Source: Salegentibacter sp. R32
Lineage (GTDB): Bacteria > Bacteroidota > Bacteroidia > Flavobacteriales > Flavobacteriaceae
DNA length: 64,000 nt
Direction: 5' to 3'
Assembly (NCBI RefSeq): GCF_008692195.1
Contig: NZ_RXOM01000018.1
Location: forward strand, 62,001 to 126,000
The notes under the pieces are model-generated. The model did not search any database. It was given only the letters and a program-made list of their open reading frames with translations, and was not told where the DNA came from. This document shows positions 18,292 through 43,743 of this stretch, one piece after another (position 1 is the stretch's first letter; the number at the start of each line of letters is the position of its first letter). The position numbers were made by a program, and so were the translations under genes.

Positions 18292-18407
18292 GGGCGCAAC
18301 CCTAGCGGGTCGGGCTATACGTTATATCTTTTTTGCTTGTCACTTCGAGCGGAGTCGAGAAGTCGTTGATCTAGCAAAAAAGGATGCCACTTCTATCCCT
18401 TGCGCAA
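18292..18407 (-). repeat. 116-bp dispersed repeat, copy A
   Basis: Read on the minus strand it starts ttgcgcaagggatagaagtg and ends cccgctagggttgcgccc. It contains the hairpin acttctcga-ctccgc-tcgaagt. It is about 94% identical (7 mismatches) to copy B at 20404-20519 in opposite orientation. Lies between leuD and leuB. Confidence 0.9.
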
Positions 18408-18413
18408 ATTAGT

Positions 18414-20386: not shown

Positions 20387-20403
20387 TTTTGTTGATCTTC
20401 TAA

Positions 20404-20519
20404 TTGCGCAAGGGATAGAAGCGGCATCCGTTTTTGCTTGATCAAAGACTTCTCGACTCCGCTCGAAGTGACAAGCAAAAAAGATATAGCGAATAGCCCG
20501 ACCCGTTAGGGTTGCGCCC
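20404..20519 (+). repeat. 116-bp dispersed repeat, copy B
   Basis: Starts ttgcgcaagggatagaagcg and ends cccgttagggttgcgccc, with the same internal hairpin. Inverted relative to copy A, so leuD-leuC sits between two inverted 116-bp repeats. Lies between leuA and leuC. Confidence 0.9.
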
Positions 20520-28683: not shown

Positions 28684-29946
28684 TTATACTAATATGTTCA
28701 TCAAACTTTCTTTGTCGTTAATATAATCTCCGAAGAATTGTAAGTCTTTCATTCGACTCATTAACGGATCAAAATCTTGTTTTGCTTTTAATTCGATACC
28801 GACTACCGCATAACCTTTTTCACGAGAATTTTTCTTGATGTATTCAAAATGCGTAATATCATCATTTGGTCCTAAAACATCAACCACAAATTGTTTTAAA
28901 GCCCCAGCACGCTGCGGAAACCGGACTAAAAAATAATGTTTAAGCCCGTTGTACAATAAAGCCCGTTCTTTAATTTCTTCCATTCGGGTAATATCGTTAT
29001 TACCTCCGCTAATGACGCAAACCACATTTTTTCCTCTTATTTCTTCTGAAAATTGCTCTAGGGCAGCTAAGGTCAAAGCTCCGGCCGGTTCAGCTACAAT
29101 AGCATCCCGATTGTATAGATTCAAGATGGTTTCGCAAATTTTTCCTTCATCAACGGTGACCACTTTTTCCAAGTTTTGTTTACAGATTTGAAAAGTGAGG
29201 TCACCAACTTTCTTAACGGCTGCACCGTCTACAAATTTATCGATAATGTGAAGTTCAGTGTTTTCATTTTTATCAATAGAAGTTGACATGGATGCAGCTC
29301 CTTTCGGTTCAACCCCAATAATTTTGGTTTGTGGAGAAAGTGCTTTAAAAACACTACTCACTCCCGAAGCCACACCGCCTCCGCCGATAGGAACAAAGAC
29401 ATAATCAATCGGTTCACGAAAAGCTTCTAGAATTTCTAAAGCAATGGTTCCTTGCCCTTCCATTATTTTAGGGTCATCAAAGGGATGAATTACTGTGCTG
29501 TGATGCAACTCGCTATATCGCATAGCTTCCTGTTTGGCATCATCAAATGTATCGCCCACGAGAATTACTTCGACTTTATCTTCGCCAAACATCCGAACTT
29601 GCTGTACTTTCTGAAGCGGAGTAGGGGTGGGCATAAAAATTTTGGCTTCAATGTTTAATTTTTTACAAGAATATGCCACACCTTGCGCGTGATTACCAGC
29701 ACTTGCGCAAACCACTCCTTTTGCTCTTTCTTCCGCAGTTAACGAAACAATTTTATTATACGCACCTCTAATTTTATACGAGCGCACCCGTTGCTGGTCT
29801 TCTCTTTTTAAGAAGATTTGAGCATCAAAATCTTTAGAATAACTTCGGTTTTTCTCTAGCGGCGTGTTTTTAGCTATGCCTTCTAAATTCTTTTGCGCTT
29901 TCTTGATTTCTGCTAAAGAAAGTTGAGGTAAAGTTTGCGTTTTCAT
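28684..29946 (-). CDS. ilvA: Threonine dehydratase IlvA
   Basis: PLP-dependent deamination of threonine to 2-oxobutyrate, the first step of isoleucine synthesis. A 420-aa enzyme with the PLP lysine in SYKIRGAYNKI, the phosphate loop VPIGGGGVASG and ASAGNHAQGVAYSC. The C-terminal ~90 residues (HYFLVRFPQRAGALKQFVVD) form one short regulatory ACT-like domain, as in the Corynebacterium/Bacillus ilvA type rather than the two-ACT E. coli type. Lies downstream of ilvC in the same orientation, separated by a 347-nt repeat-containing gap, so probably not strictly co-transcribed. Confidence 0.94.
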   Translation of the reverse strand: MKTQTLPQLSLAEIKKAQKNLEGIAKNTPLEKNRSYSKDFDAQIFLKREDQQRVRSYKIRGAYNKIVSLTAEERAKGVVCASAGNHAQGVAYSCKKLNIEAKIFMPTPTPLQKVQQVRMFGEDKVEVILVGDTFDDAKQEAMRYSELHHSTVIHPFDDPKIMEGQGTIALEILEAFREPIDYVFVPIGGGGVASGVSSVFKALSPQTKIIGVEPKGAASMSTSIDKNENTELHIIDKFVDGAAVKKVGDLTFQICKQNLEKVVTVDEGKICETILNLYNRDAIVAEPAGALTLAALEQFSEEIRGKNVVCVISGGNNDITRMEEIKERALLYNGLKHYFLVRFPQRAGALKQFVVDVLGPNDDITHFEYIKKNSREKGYAVVGIELKAKQDFDPLMSRMKDLQFFGDYINDKESLMNILV

Positions 29947-30293: not shown

Positions 30294-31340
30294 TCAGTTG
30301 TTTTCCGGTCTTAATTTTCTTACTTGCGCACCGGTTTGCCATAATTCAGATTCGCGTAATTCTTTGAGTTCTTCTTCTAGTTTTTCACGGTAATCTTCTT
30401 TTTCGTTGGCTTTGATAGTTACTCGAGCTTCTTCTCCAGTTTTTACACTATCGTAAAGATCATCAAACACAGGAAGCGTTGCTTCTCTAAATTTATGACG
30501 CCAGTCTAGAGCTCCACGTTGGGCGGTGGTGGAGCAATTGGCATACATCCAATCCATTCCGTTTTCGGCGACTAAAGGCATTAAACTTTGGGTAAGTTCT
30601 TCCACGGTTTCATTAAAAGCTTCCGAAGGTGAATGGCCATTTTTACGTAAAACCTCATATTGCGCTTCAAAAACACCGGCCAAAGCTCCCATTAAAATTC
30701 CGCGTTCCCCGGTAAGATCGGAGTAGACCTCTTTCTGAAAATCGGTTTCAAATAAATAACCCGAACCTACGCCAATGCCTAAGGCAACGACACGATCATA
30801 GGCTTTTCCCGTGGCATCTTGAAAAATAGCATAACTCGAATTTAATCCTTTTCCTTCTACAAAAAGTCGGCGTAAAGACGTTCCTGAACCTTTTGGGGCG
30901 ACTAAAATAACATCGACATCTTTGGGTGGTACAATGCCGGTTTGGTCTTTATAGGTAATCCCAAAACCGTGAGAAAAATAGAGTGCATCGCCGGAATTCA
31001 ATTGTTTTTTAACGGTTTCCCACTGAGCAATTTGCCCAGCATCAGAAAGTAAATATTGTACAATCGTTCCGCGTTTGGCGGCTTCTTCCACTTCAAAAAG
31101 TGTTTCGCCAGGAATCCAGCCATCGGCGACAGCCTTGTCCCAAGTTTTAGAGTTTTTACGTTGCCCTACAATGACGTTAAAGCCATTGTCTTTTAAGTTG
31201 AGCGCTTGCCCCGGACCTTGAACTCCATACCCGATTACTGCAATGGTTTCTTCTTTTAAAGTTTCTACTGCTTTATCTAAAGGAAACTCATCACGAGTAA
31301 CTACATTTTCTTCTACTCCGCCAAAATTTAATTTTGCCAT
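30294..31340 (-). CDS. ilvC: Ketol-acid reductoisomerase IlvC
   Basis: NADPH-dependent isomeroreduction of acetolactate or acetohydroxybutyrate. A 348-aa protein with the nucleotide motif VIGYGVQGPGQALNLKDNG, the catalytic stretch LVAPKGSGTSLRRLFVEGKG, and the Mg2+-binding DLTGERGILMGALAG and ETVEELTQSLMPLVAENGMDWMYANCSTTAQRGALDW, in a single C-terminal knot-domain arrangement. Fourth gene of the ilvD-B-N-C operon, 92 nt after ilvN. Confidence 0.95.
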   Translation of the reverse strand: MAKLNFGGVEENVVTRDEFPLDKAVETLKEETIAVIGYGVQGPGQALNLKDNGFNVIVGQRKNSKTWDKAVADGWIPGETLFEVEEAAKRGTIVQYLLSDAGQIAQWETVKKQLNSGDALYFSHGFGITYKDQTGIVPPKDVDVILVAPKGSGTSLRRLFVEGKGLNSSYAIFQDATGKAYDRVVALGIGVGSGYLFETDFQKEVYSDLTGERGILMGALAGVFEAQYEVLRKNGHSPSEAFNETVEELTQSLMPLVAENGMDWMYANCSTTAQRGALDWRHKFREATLPVFDDLYDSVKTGEEARVTIKANEKEDYREKLEEELKELRESELWQTGAQVRKLRPENN

Positions 31341-31432: not shown

Positions 31433-31972
31433 TCAATATTTAAAGGTTGAAGCCTTTTCCACTTCTGCCATGTATTCTTTAAATTCTTTCATCTGTTTGG
31501 GAATCGCTACACGGCCCGACCGTACGAAGCCTAATAAACCGTAAGGTTCTAACTTGTTGTAAAGTGCTTGCGTATCGGTTTTGTGACCTGTTTTTTCGAT
31601 GATCGTAAATTCAGCCTCGACCGTTAAAATGCGAGCATTGCTACTTCTAATGATCTCTTCCACATCTTCTCCGGAAGCTAAAGCCGAGGTAGGAACTTTA
31701 TAAAGTGCGATTTCCTGATGCACCATCTCGTCGTTGCGGTGGTAAAAAGCTTTAACCACATCGACCTGCTTTTCGATTTGCTGAATTACTTTAACGACCA
31801 GGCTTTCTTCTTCTTCCACTACAATGATGTAGCGGTGAATGCCTTCGACCTCGCTAGCTGAAGCGGTGATGCTTTCAATATTAATATGTCTTCGGGTGAA
31901 GATGATGCTTACCCGATTTAGTAAGCCAATTTTATCTTCGGTAAATACCGATATGGTGAATTCTTCTTTCAT
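31433..31972 (-). CDS. ilvN: Acetolactate synthase small subunit IlvN/IlvH
   Basis: Regulatory subunit that mediates valine feedback. A 179-aa protein with an N-terminal ACT domain, TISVFTEDKIGLLNRVSIIFTRRHINIESITA, then the C-terminal dimerisation half (EAEFTIIEKTGHKTDTQALYNKLEPYG, FVRSGRVAI). ilvB stops 6 nt before its ATG. The tail, MAEVEKASTFKY, is not conserved. Confidence 0.94.
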   Translation of the reverse strand: MKEEFTISVFTEDKIGLLNRVSIIFTRRHINIESITASASEVEGIHRYIIVVEEEESLVVKVIQQIEKQVDVVKAFYHRNDEMVHQEIALYKVPTSALASGEDVEEIIRSSNARILTVEAEFTIIEKTGHKTDTQALYNKLEPYGLLGFVRSGRVAIPKQMKEFKEYMAEVEKASTFKY

Positions 31973-31978
31973 CTTTTT

Positions 31979-33688
31979 TTATTTTAATCGCACTTCAGAA
32001 ACACAGCATCCGGTAGGAATCATGGGGAATACATTATTTTCTTTCCCTACCATCACTTCTAATAAATAGCTGCCTTTATGATTTAAAAATCGGTTGAGCG
32101 CTTCTTCTAAGTGTTCTCGTTGTTCCACACGTTCGGTTTCGATATGATAACCTTTAGCGATAGTTTGAAAATCGGGGTTCACCATTTCGGTAAACGAATA
32201 GCGACGCTCAAAAAACAATTCTTGCCATTGGCGAACCATGCCTAGAAATTCATTATTCAATACCAAAATTTTCACATCGATCTGCGATTGAAAAATGGTG
32301 CCTAACTCTTGGATCGTCATTTGAAAACCACCGTCGCCCACTACACAAATCACTTCACGATCGGGAGCTCCTAATTTGGCTCCGATCGCTGCCGGAAGTC
32401 CAAAGCCCATCGTGCCTAAACCGCCGGAAGTCACGTGACTTCGCCATTGGTCGTGCTCGTAGTACCGTTGTGCTGCCATCTGGTGCTGCCCTACATCGGT
32501 CACGATCACTGCTTTTCCTAAGGTTTTATCTGAGATTTTTTTGATTACTTCACCCATCGTCATTTCTTTTTCTAACGAAGGAGAAAGTTCTTCTTCTACG
32601 ACTTCTAAAAACTCCTTTTGCTTGCAGTTGTAGAATTCTTGTTTCCAATCATCATGCTTTTTTTCTTCTAAAAGCTCGGTAAGCATTTGCAGTGATTGTT
32701 TACAATTACCAAGAACCGGTACCTCGGCATATACGTTTTTATTGATTTCTGCCGGATCAATTTCGAGATGAATTACTTTGGCTTGTTTCGCATACCGACT
32801 TAGATCTCCGGTCACCCGATCGTCAAAACGCATGCCGACAGCTATCAACACATCACATTCGTTGGTGAGTAAATTAGGGCCGTAATTGCCGTGCATGCCT
32901 AGCATGCCCATATTGAGTGGATGATGTGAAGAAAGTGCAGAAATTCCTAAAATGGTCCACGCCGAAGGAAGGTCTCCTTTTTCAATAAATTTTCTGAATT
33001 CTTCCTGCGCTTCTGCCAACACGACTCCTTGGCCAAAAAGCACATAAGGTTTTTTCGCTTGATTGATTAAGGCCGCTGCTTTTTTAATTTGTACTTCGTT
33101 TACCGGATTATCCGGAACATAGCTACGAACACTTTGGCAAGGTTCATATTCAAATTCAAAACTTTCAAACTGTGCATCTTTGGTAATATCGATTAAAACC
33201 GGTCCCGGTCTTCCGGTTTTGGCCAAATAAAAAGCTTTGGCTAAGGCCTGCGGGATATCTTTCGCTTGCGTCACTTGGATGTTCCATTTGGTCACCGGCG
33301 TCGAAATGCCGACCACATCGGTTTCCTGAAAAGCATCGGTACCTAAAAGATTACTGCCTACTTGCCCTGTAATGCAAACTAAGGGCGTTGAATCGATCTG
33401 CGCATCGGCCAAACCGGTAATGAGGTTGGTTGCTCCCGGACCCGAAGTGGCGATGCAAACACCAACCTTACCCGAGACGCGTGCGTAACCTTGTGCGGCG
33501 TGAATGGCTCCTTGTTCGTGTCGCGTTAAAATGTGTGCTAAGCGATCGCGATAATCGTACATTGCATCGTACACCGGCATAATGGCTCCGCCGGGATAGC
33601 CAAACAAATATTCCGTTTCTTCTAGCAAAAGACATTTCACCACGGCTTCCGCTCCTGTGATGACTGTTGTTTTAGTTGATACTTCCAT
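31979..33688 (-). CDS. ilvB: Acetolactate synthase large subunit IlvB
   Basis: ThDP-dependent catalytic subunit. The 569-aa length is typical. Evidence: the catalytic Glu in [23 protein letters not shown], the ThDP/Mg motif [17 protein letters not shown] with [13 protein letters not shown], and the FAD-binding middle domain ([12 protein letters not shown]). Overlaps the end of ilvD by 17 nt, which implies translational coupling. Required by both the isoleucine and the valine/leucine branches. Confidence 0.96.
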
Positions 33689-35363
33689 GAGCTTTATCGG
33701 TTACGCATCCTAAGGATGCAGAGGTTACAGATTGTGTATATTTAAAGAGCGCTCCACGGGATACTTTTAGTGGTGGCGCTTTCCATTCTTGTTGACGCTG
33801 TTGTAATTCTTCTTCAGACAGGTGAACGTCGATCGTATTTTTTTCAGCATCGATGGTAATTTGATCGCCATCTTTCAGCAAACCAATCGTGCCGCCAACT
33901 TGTGCTTCGGGAGTAATGTGCCCAACGACAAAACCGTGCGTACCTCCGGAAAATCTTCCATCGGTAATTAAAGCCACTTTCTTTCCTAATCCTCTTCCCA
34001 TAATGGCAGAAGTAGGTTTAAGCATTTCGGGCATTCCCGGTCCGCCTTTAGGTCCTTCATAACGGATCACCACCACATCGCCTTCTTTTACTTCTCCGTT
34101 AGCAATCCCATCGTTGGCTTCATATTCGCCATTGTAGATTTTAGCGGTTCCCGAGAAGAGTAAACCTTCTTTTCCGGTGATTTTTGCTACGGCGCCTTCC
34201 GGAGCTAAGTTTCCTTTTAGAATTCGTAAATGACCGGTAGGTTTTAAAGGTTGTTCTACGGAATGAAGAATCTCTTGCTCTGAAGAAAGGGAAGGAACCT
34301 CTGCTAAATTTTCGGCTAGTGTTTTTCCGGTTACCGTTAGGCAATCGCCGTGTAGGTAGCCTTTTTCTAATAAATATTTCATGACGGCAGGAGTTCCTCC
34401 AATTTGATGCAGGTCTTCCATCAGGTATTTACCGCTCGGTTTTAAATCGGCTAAATACGGAACTTGATCACTGATTCGCTGAAAATCGTCTATCTTAAAA
34501 TCGACGCCTGCCGCATCGGCGATCGCTAAAAAGTGAAGCACGGCATTGGTCGAACCGCCTAAGGCAATGACTACGGTAATAGCGTTTTCAAATGATTTTT
34601 TTGAAACGATATCGGAAGGTTTCAAATCTTTTTTGAGCAACTCTATCACGGCTTCTCCGGCTTGGGTACATTCGGCTACTTTTGCATTTCCTACCGCAGG
34701 GTTGGAGGCGTTGTACGGAAGTGAAAAACCCAAAGCTTCAATCGCAGAAGCCATTGTATTTGCTGTGTACATTCCGCCACAAGCTCCAGGGCCGGGACAA
34801 GCATGGTGAATTACTTTTTTAAATTCGCACTCCTTCATTTTTCCGGCAGATTTTTGTCCCCAAGCCTCAAAAGCAGAAACGACATCGAGTTTTTTATCGC
34901 CTAATTTTCCGGGAGCGATGGTTCCGCCATACACCATTACTGAAGGTCTATCTAACCTGAACATCGCCATCAAAGCGCCCGGCATATTTTTATCGCAACC
35001 TACAACGGTGACTAGCGCATCGTAGCTCATTCCTTCCACCACCGTTTCCATTGAATCGGCAATAATATCGCGAGAAGGAAGTGAAAAGCGCATTCCTGGG
35101 GTTCCCATAGAAATTCCGTCGCTTACACCAATGGTGTTAAACACTAAACCTACACCATTATTGCTGTTGATACCGGTTTTTACATGTTGCGCTAGGTCGT
35201 TAAGGTGCATATTGCAGGGATTTCCTTCAAATCCTGTGCTACCAATGCCTATTAAAGGTTTTGCCAAATCTTCATCGGTTAATCCTAAAGCGTGCAGCAT
35301 CGCCTGCGAAGCGGGCTGGGAAGGGTCTTGGGTTACACGTTGACTAAATTTGTTGAGTTTCAT
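33672..35363 (-). CDS. ilvD: Dihydroxy-acid dehydratase IlvD
   Basis: Fe-S dehydratase that makes the 2-oxo acids. A 563-aa protein. Cluster cysteines are seen in [31 protein letters not shown] and [20 protein letters not shown]. Mg-binding and C-terminal motifs [19 protein letters not shown] are complete. First structural gene of the operon. Its ATG at 35363 follows leader peptide 2 and its terminator, so translation of the leader probably decides whether ilvD is transcribed. Confidence 0.96.
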
Positions 35364-35382: not shown

Positions 35383-35409
35383 AAAAAACCCTTCTCGGTG
35401 TGAGAAGGG
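35383..35409 (-). terminator. Attenuator terminator 2 of the ilv operon
   Basis: Minus strand: cccttctc, ACACC loop, gagaaggg, then TTTTTT. A perfect 8-bp stem 20 nt upstream of the ilvD ATG. The 5' half (cccttctc) can instead pair with gagaagg at 35444-35438, which overlaps the stop of leader 2: the antiterminator. Confidence 0.9.
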
Positions 35410-35437
35410 CTTCTAAATATCGTTAGTTAATAGCATA

Positions 35438-35444
35438 CCTTCTC
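35438..35444 (-). promoter_or_regulatory. Antiterminator half-site 2
   Basis: Transcript GAGAAGG, complementary to CCUUCUC of terminator 2. It starts inside the leader 2 stop region, so a ribosome stalled on the Ile/Leu/Val codons would leave it free while one reaching the stop would cover it. Confidence 0.75.
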
Positions 35445-35511
35445 AGCTCATTATTGGAATAATAATGACTAAAAGAATAATGCTAATAATGATGTTACTG
35501 TTTGTTTTCAT
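35443..35511 (-). CDS. ilv operon leader peptide 2
   Basis: A 22-aa ORF, MKTNSNIIISIILLVIIIPI then MS. Twelve of 22 residues are Ile, Leu or Val, with runs III, II-LL-V and III. Nothing else of the reading frame suggests a function. It precedes the perfect attenuator hairpin at 35409-35383 and ilvD. This is the classical layout of branched-chain amino acid attenuation, where shortage of charged tRNA stalls the ribosome. Confidence 0.85.
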   Translation of the reverse strand: MKTNSNIIISIILLVIIIPIMS

Positions 35512-35521
35512 CTAATCAAAT

Positions 35522-35545
35522 AAAAAACCATCCGAAAAAGGATGG
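35522..35545 (-). terminator. Attenuator terminator 1 of the ilv operon
   Basis: Minus strand: ccatcc, TTTTTC loop, ggatgg, then TTTTTT. Six-bp perfect stem. The ccatcc half can alternatively pair with ggatgg at 35567-35562 just upstream. Confidence 0.85.
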
Positions 35546-35561
35546 CTTCAATTTTGGGTAC

Positions 35562-35567
35562 CATCCA
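35562..35567 (-). promoter_or_regulatory. Antiterminator half-site 1
   Basis: Transcript GGAUGG, in GAUGGAUGGUACCC just after the leader 1 stop, can pair with CCAUCC of terminator 1, mutually exclusive with the terminator stem. Confidence 0.7.
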
Positions 35568-35571
35568 TCAG

Positions 35572-35634
35572 TTAATTTCTAATAATAGAAATGACTAGAC
35601 AGATGATTGATATTTTTTTGTTTAACTTCTTCAT
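35572..35634 (-). CDS. ilv operon leader peptide 1
   Basis: A 20-aa ORF: MKKLNKK, then ISIICLVISII, then RN. Nine of 20 residues are Ile, Leu or Val, nearly all in one block. It is followed within 5 nt by the antiterminator half-site and 27-50 nt later by terminator 1. Together with leader 2 it makes two complete, independent attenuators in series in front of ilvD. Confidence 0.82.
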   Translation of the reverse strand: MKKLNKKISIICLVISIIRN

Positions 35635-35913
35635 AATTGTTTGATGAAAGTATAGAACTGTTTTGGATTGACCAAAATATAATTCGATTAAAATGTTAAA
35701 ATGTTTCATTTTTATTGAATTGTTAGTTTTTAGGTGAGAAAAATGTCAATCTGAAAATTACTATCAACTGTTATACATTTCTTTTTCAATCATTTTGGCA
35801 AAATTAAATAGTATTCCTCTCCTATTTTTAAAAACAGGTATTATTACGCGTTTATGGTAAAGTGATTTGTAATAATTTGGTGGACAGAATAATAACCGAA
35901 AAACTATCAAATT
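35635..35913. other. Divergent intergenic region between the ilv leaders and the amine oxidase gene
   Basis: AT-rich, carrying the promoters of both directions. On the minus strand, TATATTTTGG near 35675 is the best -7-like element for the ilv transcript but is one base too long for TAnnTTTG. On +, taataatttgg near 35873 is equally imperfect. No repeat or gene seen. Confidence 0.45.
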
Positions 35914-42114: not shown

Positions 42115-43743
42115 ATGTATTTTTCAAAAATTAGCAAGTCAATATTATTTTTTTTCTGTGTATTTAATTTTTTTTTAATAAATGCTCAAAACTCTATTTA
42201 TAGCGACAGTCTTAAAATTATAAATCTTTACGAAGGGGCGCGTCAAAATTCAGATAAAAATCCAATTAAGGCAAAAGAGATTTTATATGATTTAGTTAAA
42301 TTCACTGATAGCATTTCTACTAAGCATACAGTTTCAGAAAAATTTTTAGCTGAAAGAAAATCAACAGCACTTCATTTTTTAAGTTATTTCGAAAGGCGTG
42401 AATCTAATTTTGAGAAATCTTTAGAATTGGCTCAAAGAAGTATTGAAATTAAAGAAGCTAATGATTTTCATCAATTACTCGCCACAACGTATCATCAAAA
42501 GGCAAAGACTTGGCACAATTTAAACTTAAATAGTGAAGTATTAAAAGCATTAGATAAGGCAGATTCTATAGCTAAACAGTATAACCAAAAAGATGAATTG
42601 CTCGAGATCTATAGTTCCTACGGTTCTTATTATGGATATCTTGGAGATACTATAAATGCGAAAAAATATTATAGAGCTTCAATCAAGTTGGTAGAAGATA
42701 TAGGGAACCATCATCAAGAGGCAATAGTCTATTCCAACTATGCAAATTATCTGCATAGGACAGGCCATTATCATGAAAGTTTACCGTATTTAGAAAAATC
42801 TTTACAATTACATATTGATAACGATAATGATATTGGTTTAGAATCAGCCCTATATGCCTTGGGAATTCATTATAATAAAGTTGAAAAACCAGAAAAGGCG
42901 ATTTATTATTTAAAACAGGCTATAAATTTAAATATTAAATTAAATGGAGAAGCTACTTTACCATTTCGCTACAAGGCCTTAAGTTATAGTTACGAATTGC
43001 TTGAAGATTACAAAAATGCCTACCAATATCATAAGTTATATAAAGAAGCACTGGCAAAGCGAAATGATGCTGAAGAAATAAAGCGAGTGGCGTTTTTGGA
43101 AAAGGATTTTCAAGCTGAAAAAAGAAGAGTTATAGATAGTACAGCTTTTATACAACAAAAACTATTGGATGAAAGTAATTTAAAACGAAAAGCCAATACC
43201 CGTTTTTGGGTATTTGTAGTTTTTATAACAATAATCATAGGAGTCATCGTTTTTTTATTAGGAAGGAATAGACAAAAAATTAAAGAACAGGCTTATCAAA
43301 ATATTTTGCTAAACAATAAAATTGCTGTCAAAACCGAAGAGATAAATGAATTATTGACAGAAACCATTCAACATATCCGTAGTAAAGAGCATTTAGCTGA
43401 AAACCTTCAGAAATTATCTCTAGAGCAAGAAGGCATAACGTTAAAAAGCATTATTGCAGATTTAAAAGCTAGCAAAGCAGATCATTCTAAATTAATGCTT
43501 ATTAAGCAAAATATTAAACAAGTAAATTTTGAATTTATAAAAAAGCTAAAAACCAAACACCCCATTCTTACCAAAACCGATATTGAAATTTGCTCTTTTA
43601 TTCGCATTGGATTAAGCAGAAAAGAAATAGCCAATTTGCGAAATACTTCCTTAGAAGCAGTTAAATCTTCCCGTTTTAGGATAAAGAAAAAATTGAAAAT
43701 TTCAGCTTCAGAAAAACTTGACGACTATGTTAACTCATTGTAG
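42115..43743 (+). CDS. TPR-containing sensor-type regulator with C-terminal HTH
   Basis: A 542-aa protein of a common flavobacterial type: an N-terminal signal/membrane segment (SKISKSILFFFCVFNFFLINAQ), TPR repeats over residues ~60-340 (ESALYALGIHYNKVEKPEKAIYYLKQAI), a transmembrane helix FWVFVVFITIIIGVIVFLLG (~365-385), a coiled region, and a LuxR/FixJ-type HTH at the C-terminus (LTKTDIEICSFIRIGLSRKEIANLRNTSLEAVKSSRFRIKKKL). Start at 42115 rather than the TTG at 42097. No kinase domain. It probably senses envelope signals and regulates transcription, possibly of the neighbouring small genes. Confidence 0.8.
   Translation: MYFSKISKSILFFFCVFNFFLINAQNSIYSDSLKIINLYEGARQNSDKNPIKAKEILYDLVKFTDSISTKHTVSEKFLAERKSTALHFLSYFERRESNFEKSLELAQRSIEIKEANDFHQLLATTYHQKAKTWHNLNLNSEVLKALDKADSIAKQYNQKDELLEIYSSYGSYYGYLGDTINAKKYYRASIKLVEDIGNHHQEAIVYSNYANYLHRTGHYHESLPYLEKSLQLHIDNDNDIGLESALYALGIHYNKVEKPEKAIYYLKQAINLNIKLNGEATLPFRYKALSYSYELLEDYKNAYQYHKLYKEALAKRNDAEEIKRVAFLEKDFQAEKRRVIDSTAFIQQKLLDESNLKRKANTRFWVFVVFITIIIGVIVFLLGRNRQKIKEQAYQNILLNNKIAVKTEEINELLTETIQHIRSKEHLAENLQKLSLEQEGITLKSIIADLKASKADHSKLMLIKQNIKQVNFEFIKKLKTKHPILTKTDIEICSFIRIGLSRKEIANLRNTSLEAVKSSRFRIKKKLKISASEKLDDYVNSL

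Follow-up and report, generated by a model that had tools for sequence, protein, structure and literature searches.

Results

Two leader modules lie in tandem upstream of an ilv operon

The window that we analysed, a stretch of 64,000 nucleotides from Salegentibacter sp. R32, carries on its minus strand a group of genes for the synthesis of isoleucine and valine. These genes were called with NCBIfam models, each scoring above its cut-off:

33672-35363, minus strand: ilvD, dihydroxy-acid dehydratase (TIGR00110)
31979-33688, minus strand: ilvB, acetolactate synthase large subunit (TIGR00118)
31433-31972, minus strand: acetolactate synthase small subunit, ilvH/ilvN (TIGR00119)
30294-31340, minus strand: ilvC, ketol-acid reductoisomerase (TIGR00465)
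28684-29946, minus strand: ilvA, threonine ammonia-lyase, the first step towards isoleucine (NF006390)

From its strand and the 348-nt gap that precedes it, ilvA is probably part of the same operon, ilvDBHCA. Upstream of ilvD, the interval from 35680 to 35363, which runs from promoter-like elements to the ilvD start, contains the following features, all on the minus strand:

35672-35677, minus strand: promoter-like upstream element TTTTGG (putative, compare the Bacteroidota -33 TTTG)
35646-35654, minus strand: promoter-like element TATACTTTC, 11 nt before leader 1 (putative, an imperfect match to TANNTTTG)
35572-35634, minus strand: leader peptide 1, MKKLNKKISIICLVISIIRN, 20 amino acids, 9 of them Ile, Leu or Val
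35561-35566, minus strand: antiterminator segment 1, GGATGG, 8-13 nt past the first base of stop codon 1
35522-35549, minus strand: terminator 1 and T run (core CCATCC-TTTTTC-GGATGG at 35545-35528, extended stem 35549-35524)
35443-35511, minus strand: leader peptide 2, MKTNSNIIISIILLVIIIPIMS, 22 amino acids, 12 of them Ile, Leu or Val
35438-35445, minus strand: antiterminator segment 2, TGAGAAGG, which starts inside stop codon 2
35383-35412, minus strand: terminator 2 and T run (core CCCTTCTC-ACACC-GAGAAGGG at 35409-35389)

GGATGG (35566-35561) can pair with the CCATCC of the hairpin at 35545-35528, and TGAGAAGG (35445-35438) can pair with CCTTCTCA of the hairpin at 35409-35389. The core of the terminator is weaker in module 1 than in module 2 (-8.2 versus -12.3 kcal/mol, L001). 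The 271-nt leader as a whole has a folding energy of -77.9 kcal/mol, compared to -44.6 +/- 4.3 kcal/mol in shuffled sequences, which is 7.8 standard deviations below. A preliminary description of this DNA had named the two leaders, their pairing segments, the two hairpins with T runs and the ilvD start, and had proposed two complete attenuators in tandem; all that it named lies where it said, on the minus strand, and the proposal is borne out by the anatomy and by the folding, recurrence and conservation described below.

The two promoter-like elements may form the promoter of the operon, judging by their resemblance to the Bacteroidota consensus TTTG/TANNTTTG (as given in the part of PMC6847099 available to us). 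The other five ilvD loci of the genus also have TTTG ahead of the leader, and all six have TATANTTT at the second element. Directly upstream of these elements, at 35703-35681, is CATTTTAACATTTTAATCGAATT, a similar form of which is present in all six genus loci (L001-L006); it may be an UP-like element or an operator. In this phylum translation starts without Shine-Dalgarno sequences (PMC6847099). The context of the leader start codons is hardly enriched in A, either at -3 (0.46 versus 0.36) or at -6 (0.36 versus 0.36).

Only 16 nt separate the end of terminator 1 from the ATG of leader 2 in the window, and this distance is 7-50 nt in the 16 tandem loci that we found outside the genus (negative values for L002-L004 come from the detector picking an upstream in-frame ATG). 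Both modules are therefore most likely carried by one RNA, unless there is a promoter inside module 1. A layout in which each attenuator has a promoter of its own, with no action in series, is very unlikely, since in nearly all loci the spacing is shorter than a promoter plus start site.

The tandem arrangement is not expected by chance

We scanned for leader modules with a detector that accepts an ATG-initiated reading frame whose last 18 residues include a 12-residue stretch with at least 6 Ile, Leu or Val and whose stop codon lies 8-85 nt before a terminator; it makes no use of antiterminator complementarity. In 5000 dinucleotide shuffles of the 800-nt region upstream of ilvD, it found 8 modules and no pair. 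Across the minus strand of the whole window it found four modules: the ilvD pair (8 and 11 Ile, Leu or Val in 12) and two weak matches, at 43367 and 15263 (6 in 12). It found none on the plus strand. By amino acid composition alone, against a background of 22.5% Ile, Leu and Val, leader 1 (9 of 20) has P = 0.02 and leader 2 has P = 0.001. As sole evidence the composition of leader 1 is weak, and the case for the pair is built on the combination of elements and on their conservation, not on composition.

A T-box or a known riboswitch was also considered for this leader. No Rfam family matched it at gathering score. Allowing E-values up to 5 gave eight matches below threshold, including Phe_leader on each module (23.8 and 22.3 bits, where the gathering score is 55), so neither class is indicated. 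The features that we do find are those of ilv-type attenuators: short reading frames that precede the biosynthetic operon and are rich in its end products, an intrinsic terminator (as predicted from sequence) between leader and first gene, and in both window modules an antiterminator that excludes the terminator and would be blocked by a ribosome at the stop codon.

Folding predicts a switch at the end of each leader

We modelled the switch by placing each codon in turn in the ribosomal A site, folding the RNA that lies 3' of the ribosome as far as the last nucleotide of the terminator loop, and recording how probable it is that the antiterminator segment is paired with the terminator's 5' arm. 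Because this segment was preselected for complementarity, the informative result is the position along the leader at which pairing is lost. Pairing probability in window module 1 was 1.0 from Lys7 to Arg19, 0.8 at Asn20 and 0.3 at the stop codon; in module 2 it was 1.0 from Ile7 to Pro19, 0.6 at Ile20, 0.1 at Met21, and 0.0 at Ser22 and the stop. Over the stretch rich in Ile, Leu and Val it was thus close to 1.0 in both modules. Pairing ends in the same manner in L002-L004. Outside the genus we folded the eight modules of four loci, of which five lose antiterminator pairing at the end of the leader; in the codon-by-codon folding, L055 module 2 and L178 module 1 had no antiterminator, and L182 module 2 had no drop at the stop.

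With no ribosome on the RNA, the predicted probability of the antiterminator was 0.14 in window module 1 and 0.68 in window module 2, and 0.64 and 0.97 in module 1 of L002 and L003, respectively. In both window modules the leader folds below shuffled sequences (a check on the 1:2 protector hairpin), but with the antiterminator predicted to be this frequent in several modules, a protecting hairpin is clear in some of them only.

Taken over all modules, the complementarity between stop region and terminator is better within a module than between modules. In 129 modules, the stop region scored 12.93 against the terminator arm of its own module and 10.41 against the arms of other modules, a difference reached by none of 2000 permutations. 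In an earlier set of 106 modules, a control segment inside the leader scored 7.62, compared to 13.37. Broken down by terminator type, these 106 modules show the effect in type A (n = 59, 0 of 2000 permutations) and in the rest (n = 12, 0 of 2000), whereas own and swapped arms did not differ in type B (n = 35, 839 of 2000), perhaps because type B arms hardly vary.

These results lead us to propose, with considerable confidence, that two complete classical leader-peptide attenuators act in series on one transcript ahead of ilvDBHCA. When charged tRNA is scarce, a ribosome would stall at the Ile codons (and also the Val or Leu codons) of a leader. The antiterminator segment at its stop codon would then stay uncovered and could engage the 5' side of the terminator hairpin, allowing RNA polymerase to read on. 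A ribosome that reaches the stop codon would instead cover the antiterminator segment, and the terminator would form.

Module 2 is kept at all six ilvD loci of the genus and module 1 in a clade

Six of 16 genomes of the genus have ilvD. Both modules are present at four of these six loci (L001-L004); L005 and L006 are without module 1 and have promoter-like elements directly ahead of module 2, which is kept in all six. L001-L004 form a clade in a tree of ilvD DNA sequences (support 95/97), with the two single-module loci outside it, so module 1 was either gained once, or lost once or twice. Within the clade, leader 1 keeps its length and frame; its N-terminal part varies, but the final seven codons and the stop codon do not. 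The antiterminator and hairpin core of module 1 are invariant too, and for this reason covariation there cannot test module 1. Across the six loci, 97% of cells in the terminator 2 stem are paired and 3 of its 11 base pairs have changed on both sides; the antiterminator pairing of module 2 is retained in 95.7% of cells, with no double change. Covariation of the stems, which had been named beforehand as a check, is therefore seen in terminator 2 but not in antiterminator 2. Loss of reading frames or stems in close relatives, named as evidence against the pair, applies in part: module 1 is absent at two of the six loci, and module 2 at none.

This pattern raises the question of whether module 2 is the sole regulator, with module 1 a recent insertion or remnant of little effect, or a weak promoter-proximal terminator. 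Two of the six loci live without module 1, its terminator core is both the weaker one and invariant, and its leader composition is by itself weakly significant. Nonetheless we consider this reading unlikely, because in four genomes leader 1 has kept its length, frame, final seven codons and stop despite a variable N-terminus, together with the antiterminator and hairpin core. In addition, module 1 of the window resembles the first modules of tandem loci in other genera (5 of 16 score above every shuffle) and none of their second modules (0 of 16), and tandem pairs recur widely in the family, as described next.

Tandem modules recur across the Flavobacteriaceae

The detector was applied to 290 distinct regions upstream of ilvD, drawn from 100 plus 40 ilvD places among the matches listed and from the loci that the searches yielded directly; L019, L028, L029 and L030 were left out for lack of upstream DNA or as distant or partial matches, and 11 rows as duplicates of others. 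Two modules were found in 20 regions, one in 89 and none in 181, where 'none' means none by the detector, which can miss real modules. By comparison, no pair arose in 1450 shuffles of these regions, which contained four modules, or on the reverse strands of all 290, which contained three. The numbers with two, one and no modules were 16, 45 and 86 in the 147 rows from searches of relatives and of the family; 4, 21 and 55 in 80 loci from named organisms; and 0, 22 and 38 in the 60 rows of a phylum-wide search (of which L239, L309 and L310 belong again to the family). The last three rows come from the order.

Sixteen of the 20 tandem loci fall into 12 coded genera of the family, and the search for paired micro-ORFs and hairpins across the Flavobacteriaceae that the preliminary description had suggested thus yields a recurrent arrangement. 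The other four are from named organisms: L047 (Gaetbulibacter sp. S0825), L053 (an uncultured Aquimarina), L055 (an Ignavibacteriae metagenome-assembled genome) and L057 (an uncultured Lutibacter). Their genera cannot be matched with the coded ones, and the count of 12 genera refers to the 16 family loci.

The two positions in the pair differ in their terminators. CTGTATC or a close variant occurs in terminator 2 at 14 tandem loci out of 20 (the six others being the four of the genus, L053 and L055), and in terminator 1 at none. Outside the genus, the distance from terminator 2 to ilvD is 172-311 nt at every tandem locus (15 of 16) except L055, where it is 30 nt; in the window it is 25 nt.

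Two further observations concern sequences near these modules. By eye we spotted a motif like GTTGAACATCATA lying 20-30 nt past the second terminator, and about 130-290 nt upstream of ilvD, in L047, L178, L182, L017 and L227, with weaker forms in L221 and L020. In another family of the phylum, most of L243-L264 have one Ile/Val-rich leader upstream of ilvD, which runs through a YRxGK-like end and is followed by a CCTTCCC terminator.

Both leaders are dominated by isoleucine

For the 16 tandem loci outside the genus, we compared amino acid content over the final 14 codons of each leader: first leaders contain 40% Ile, 16% Val and 6% Leu, and second leaders contain 42% Ile, 13% Val and 5% Leu. 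From this near-identical make-up, both modules seem to read the same amino acids. It had been suggested that the two leaders might sense separately, because leader 1 of the window contains Cys and leader 2 contains Pro and Met. Such a two-input gate, with leaders reading different amino acids as a counterpart to the Salmonella mgtCBR leader, is quite unlikely: both leaders are dominated by Ile, Cys is missing from leader 1 of L004 (STILLV), and just 4 of the 16 second leaders from other genera contain Pro.

GTC makes up 139 of the 257 Val codons in 120 ilvD leaders, compared to 35 of 212 in a background of six window genes (Fisher P = 1.8 x 10-17, with a background from one genome and with related leaders that are not independent). 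This strong preference may reflect a tRNA whose charging is the first to drop, or a role of the codon in RNA pairing. This codon bias, the complementarity of the stop region to the terminator, and conservation that lies in the codons next to the stop and not at the N-terminus all speak against the idea that the micro-ORFs encode functional small hydrophobic peptides, with hairpins that are ordinary terminators or processing sites. Both peptides are indeed very hydrophobic, but we judge this explanation highly improbable, and attenuation by translation of the leaders remains our preferred reading.

Origin of the pair

Module 1 does not look like a recent copy of module 2 made within the genus. 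First-versus-second module scores were 20, 21, 23 and 26 in L001-L004, under the shuffled maxima of 24, 27, 30 and 28, and 42, 33, 10 and 8 of 500 shuffles, respectively, scored as high. Window module 2 scored above the best shuffle against 4 of the 16 first modules and 5 of the 16 second modules of other genera. The two modules of L053, by comparison, are near-copies (score 88, a value without a shuffle control), and this pair looks like a recent duplication.

A single origin of the pair in the family is not shown by a tree of ilvD with 109 rows, on which the two-module state requires 14 changes, seven of them forced by starred branches; detector misses inflate this count. The state is nevertheless clustered on the tree beyond what shuffling produces (0 of 500 shuffles as low). 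The tree is a biased sample in that all 20 tandem loci were included; from L139-L238 it took 20 loci (11 tandem and 9 single), and L068-L110 were excluded as distant. Gains or losses of the pair therefore look frequent, although detector misses and biased sampling inflate or distort the count.

Leader modules elsewhere in the genome

Two other amino acid loci of the same genome have leaders of this kind. A His-rich leader, MREINLHHHHIHFHAQAR, with one terminator lies upstream of hisG (L331, about 1332 to 1450), and a Trp-rich leader, MKILTVHTWWWNNLRKTS, also with one terminator, lies upstream of a trpE-like gene (L332, reverse strand, about 1318 to 1435) that scores 447.6 bits, under the TIGR00564 cut-off of 517.7. 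Their presence suggests that leader-peptide attenuation operates in this genome.

The leucine genes leuA, leuC and leuB are apart from the ilv operon, at 17-22 kb of the window, and the detector found no leader module upstream of leuA. Among the leu genes there are two matches to Flavo-1 RNA, at 20398-20507 (plus strand) and 18304-18410 (minus strand). One of them is between leuA and the leuC match, on the opposite strand, and the other is just before leuB; the gene preceding the latter is presumably leuD.

Discussion

The enterobacterial operons ilvGMEDA and ilvBN have the classical leader-peptide attenuators of branched-chain synthesis, and to our knowledge the classical branched-chain operons have one attenuator each. 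The locus studied here is like them in having leaders rich in the end products, an antiterminator/terminator switch and a branched-chain operon downstream, and unlike them in having two complete attenuators in series. Corynebacterium ilvBNC is a further branched-chain operon with a leader-peptide attenuator (PMC11857589 and PMC10272879, available to us in part).

Tandem attenuators as such have a precedent, contrary to the preliminary description, which knew of no described tandem leader pair of this type. In the accessible part of PMC3641672, the Salmonella mgtCBR leader is described as having tandem attenuators that act additively, with mgtM responding to ATP and mgtP to proline, and with stem-loops that do not resemble intrinsic terminators. 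The likeness is that two leader ORFs lie in one leader RNA, each within an attenuator; at ilvD the two ORFs are present and the single transcript is suggested by their spacing. The differences from mgtCBR, on the strength of that excerpt, are that both ilvD modules have predicted intrinsic terminators and that, judged by leader amino acid make-up alone, both would respond to Ile and Val and not to different signals.

Other comparisons also draw on partial texts. The rimP-leader of several Gammaproteobacteria has a second terminator in tandem, with a potential antiterminator at the upstream one (PMC2965389). It shares with the ilvD pair the two terminators in series, but the available passage mentions no leader peptide, and it concerns another gene in another phylum. 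Pseudo-cooperative behaviour is described for tandem riboswitches that share one ligand (PMC9481103); like the ilvD pair, these consist of two complete switches in a row, both of the transcription-terminating kind and both for one signal, but they sense through ligand-binding aptamers, whereas the sensor proposed here is a translating ribosome. Closest in phylogeny, strong clues for leader-peptide attenuation upstream of amino acid operons have been reported in Flavobacterium psychrophilum, also of the Flavobacteriaceae and with the same mechanism proposed (PMC9723704); in what was available of that paper, 'ilv' is absent from the main text and a tandem pair is not mentioned. The accessible parts of PMC4974804, PMC4833913, PMC2659441 and PMC7366714 contain no same-signal tandem leader-peptide attenuator, nor did one appear among the matches listed in our literature searches, which subscription journals lie mostly outside.

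The likely consequence of the series can be sketched with simple arithmetic. Since polymerase must pass both terminators, read-through of the pair would be the product of two similar probabilities. For two equal switches in series (a toy model, not data), read-through of 0.1 to 0.9 in each raises the fold range from 8.3 to 68, with an effective slope of 1.18 in place of 1.04; read-through of 0.2 to 0.8 raises the fold range from 3.9 to 15 and the slope from 1.04 to 1.11. The pair would thus leak less when amino acids are plentiful and would have a wider range, with slight steepening only. The model gives too small a gain in slope for the steeper response that had been suggested for two switches in series, and points to a wider range in its place.

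We lean slightly towards a view in which a two-stage attenuator is a standing feature of the family: two non-identical modules for the same signal, in fixed order, which have repeatedly been reduced to one or rebuilt by duplication, with the series multiplying repression and the two stages perhaps differing in threshold.

Attenuation is taught as one switch per operon. The ilvD pair, known here from its sequence, looks like a two-stage gate on one operon, and comparison among genomes supports the double arrangement well. If our reading is right, these would be the first described same-signal tandem leader-peptide attenuators with two intrinsic terminators in the literature searched, which suggests that stacking, familiar from tandem riboswitches, is open to leader-peptide attenuators as well. 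Because the double arrangement is present in four and absent in two close relatives within one genus, the question of what an additional switch brings to these bacteria is directly testable.
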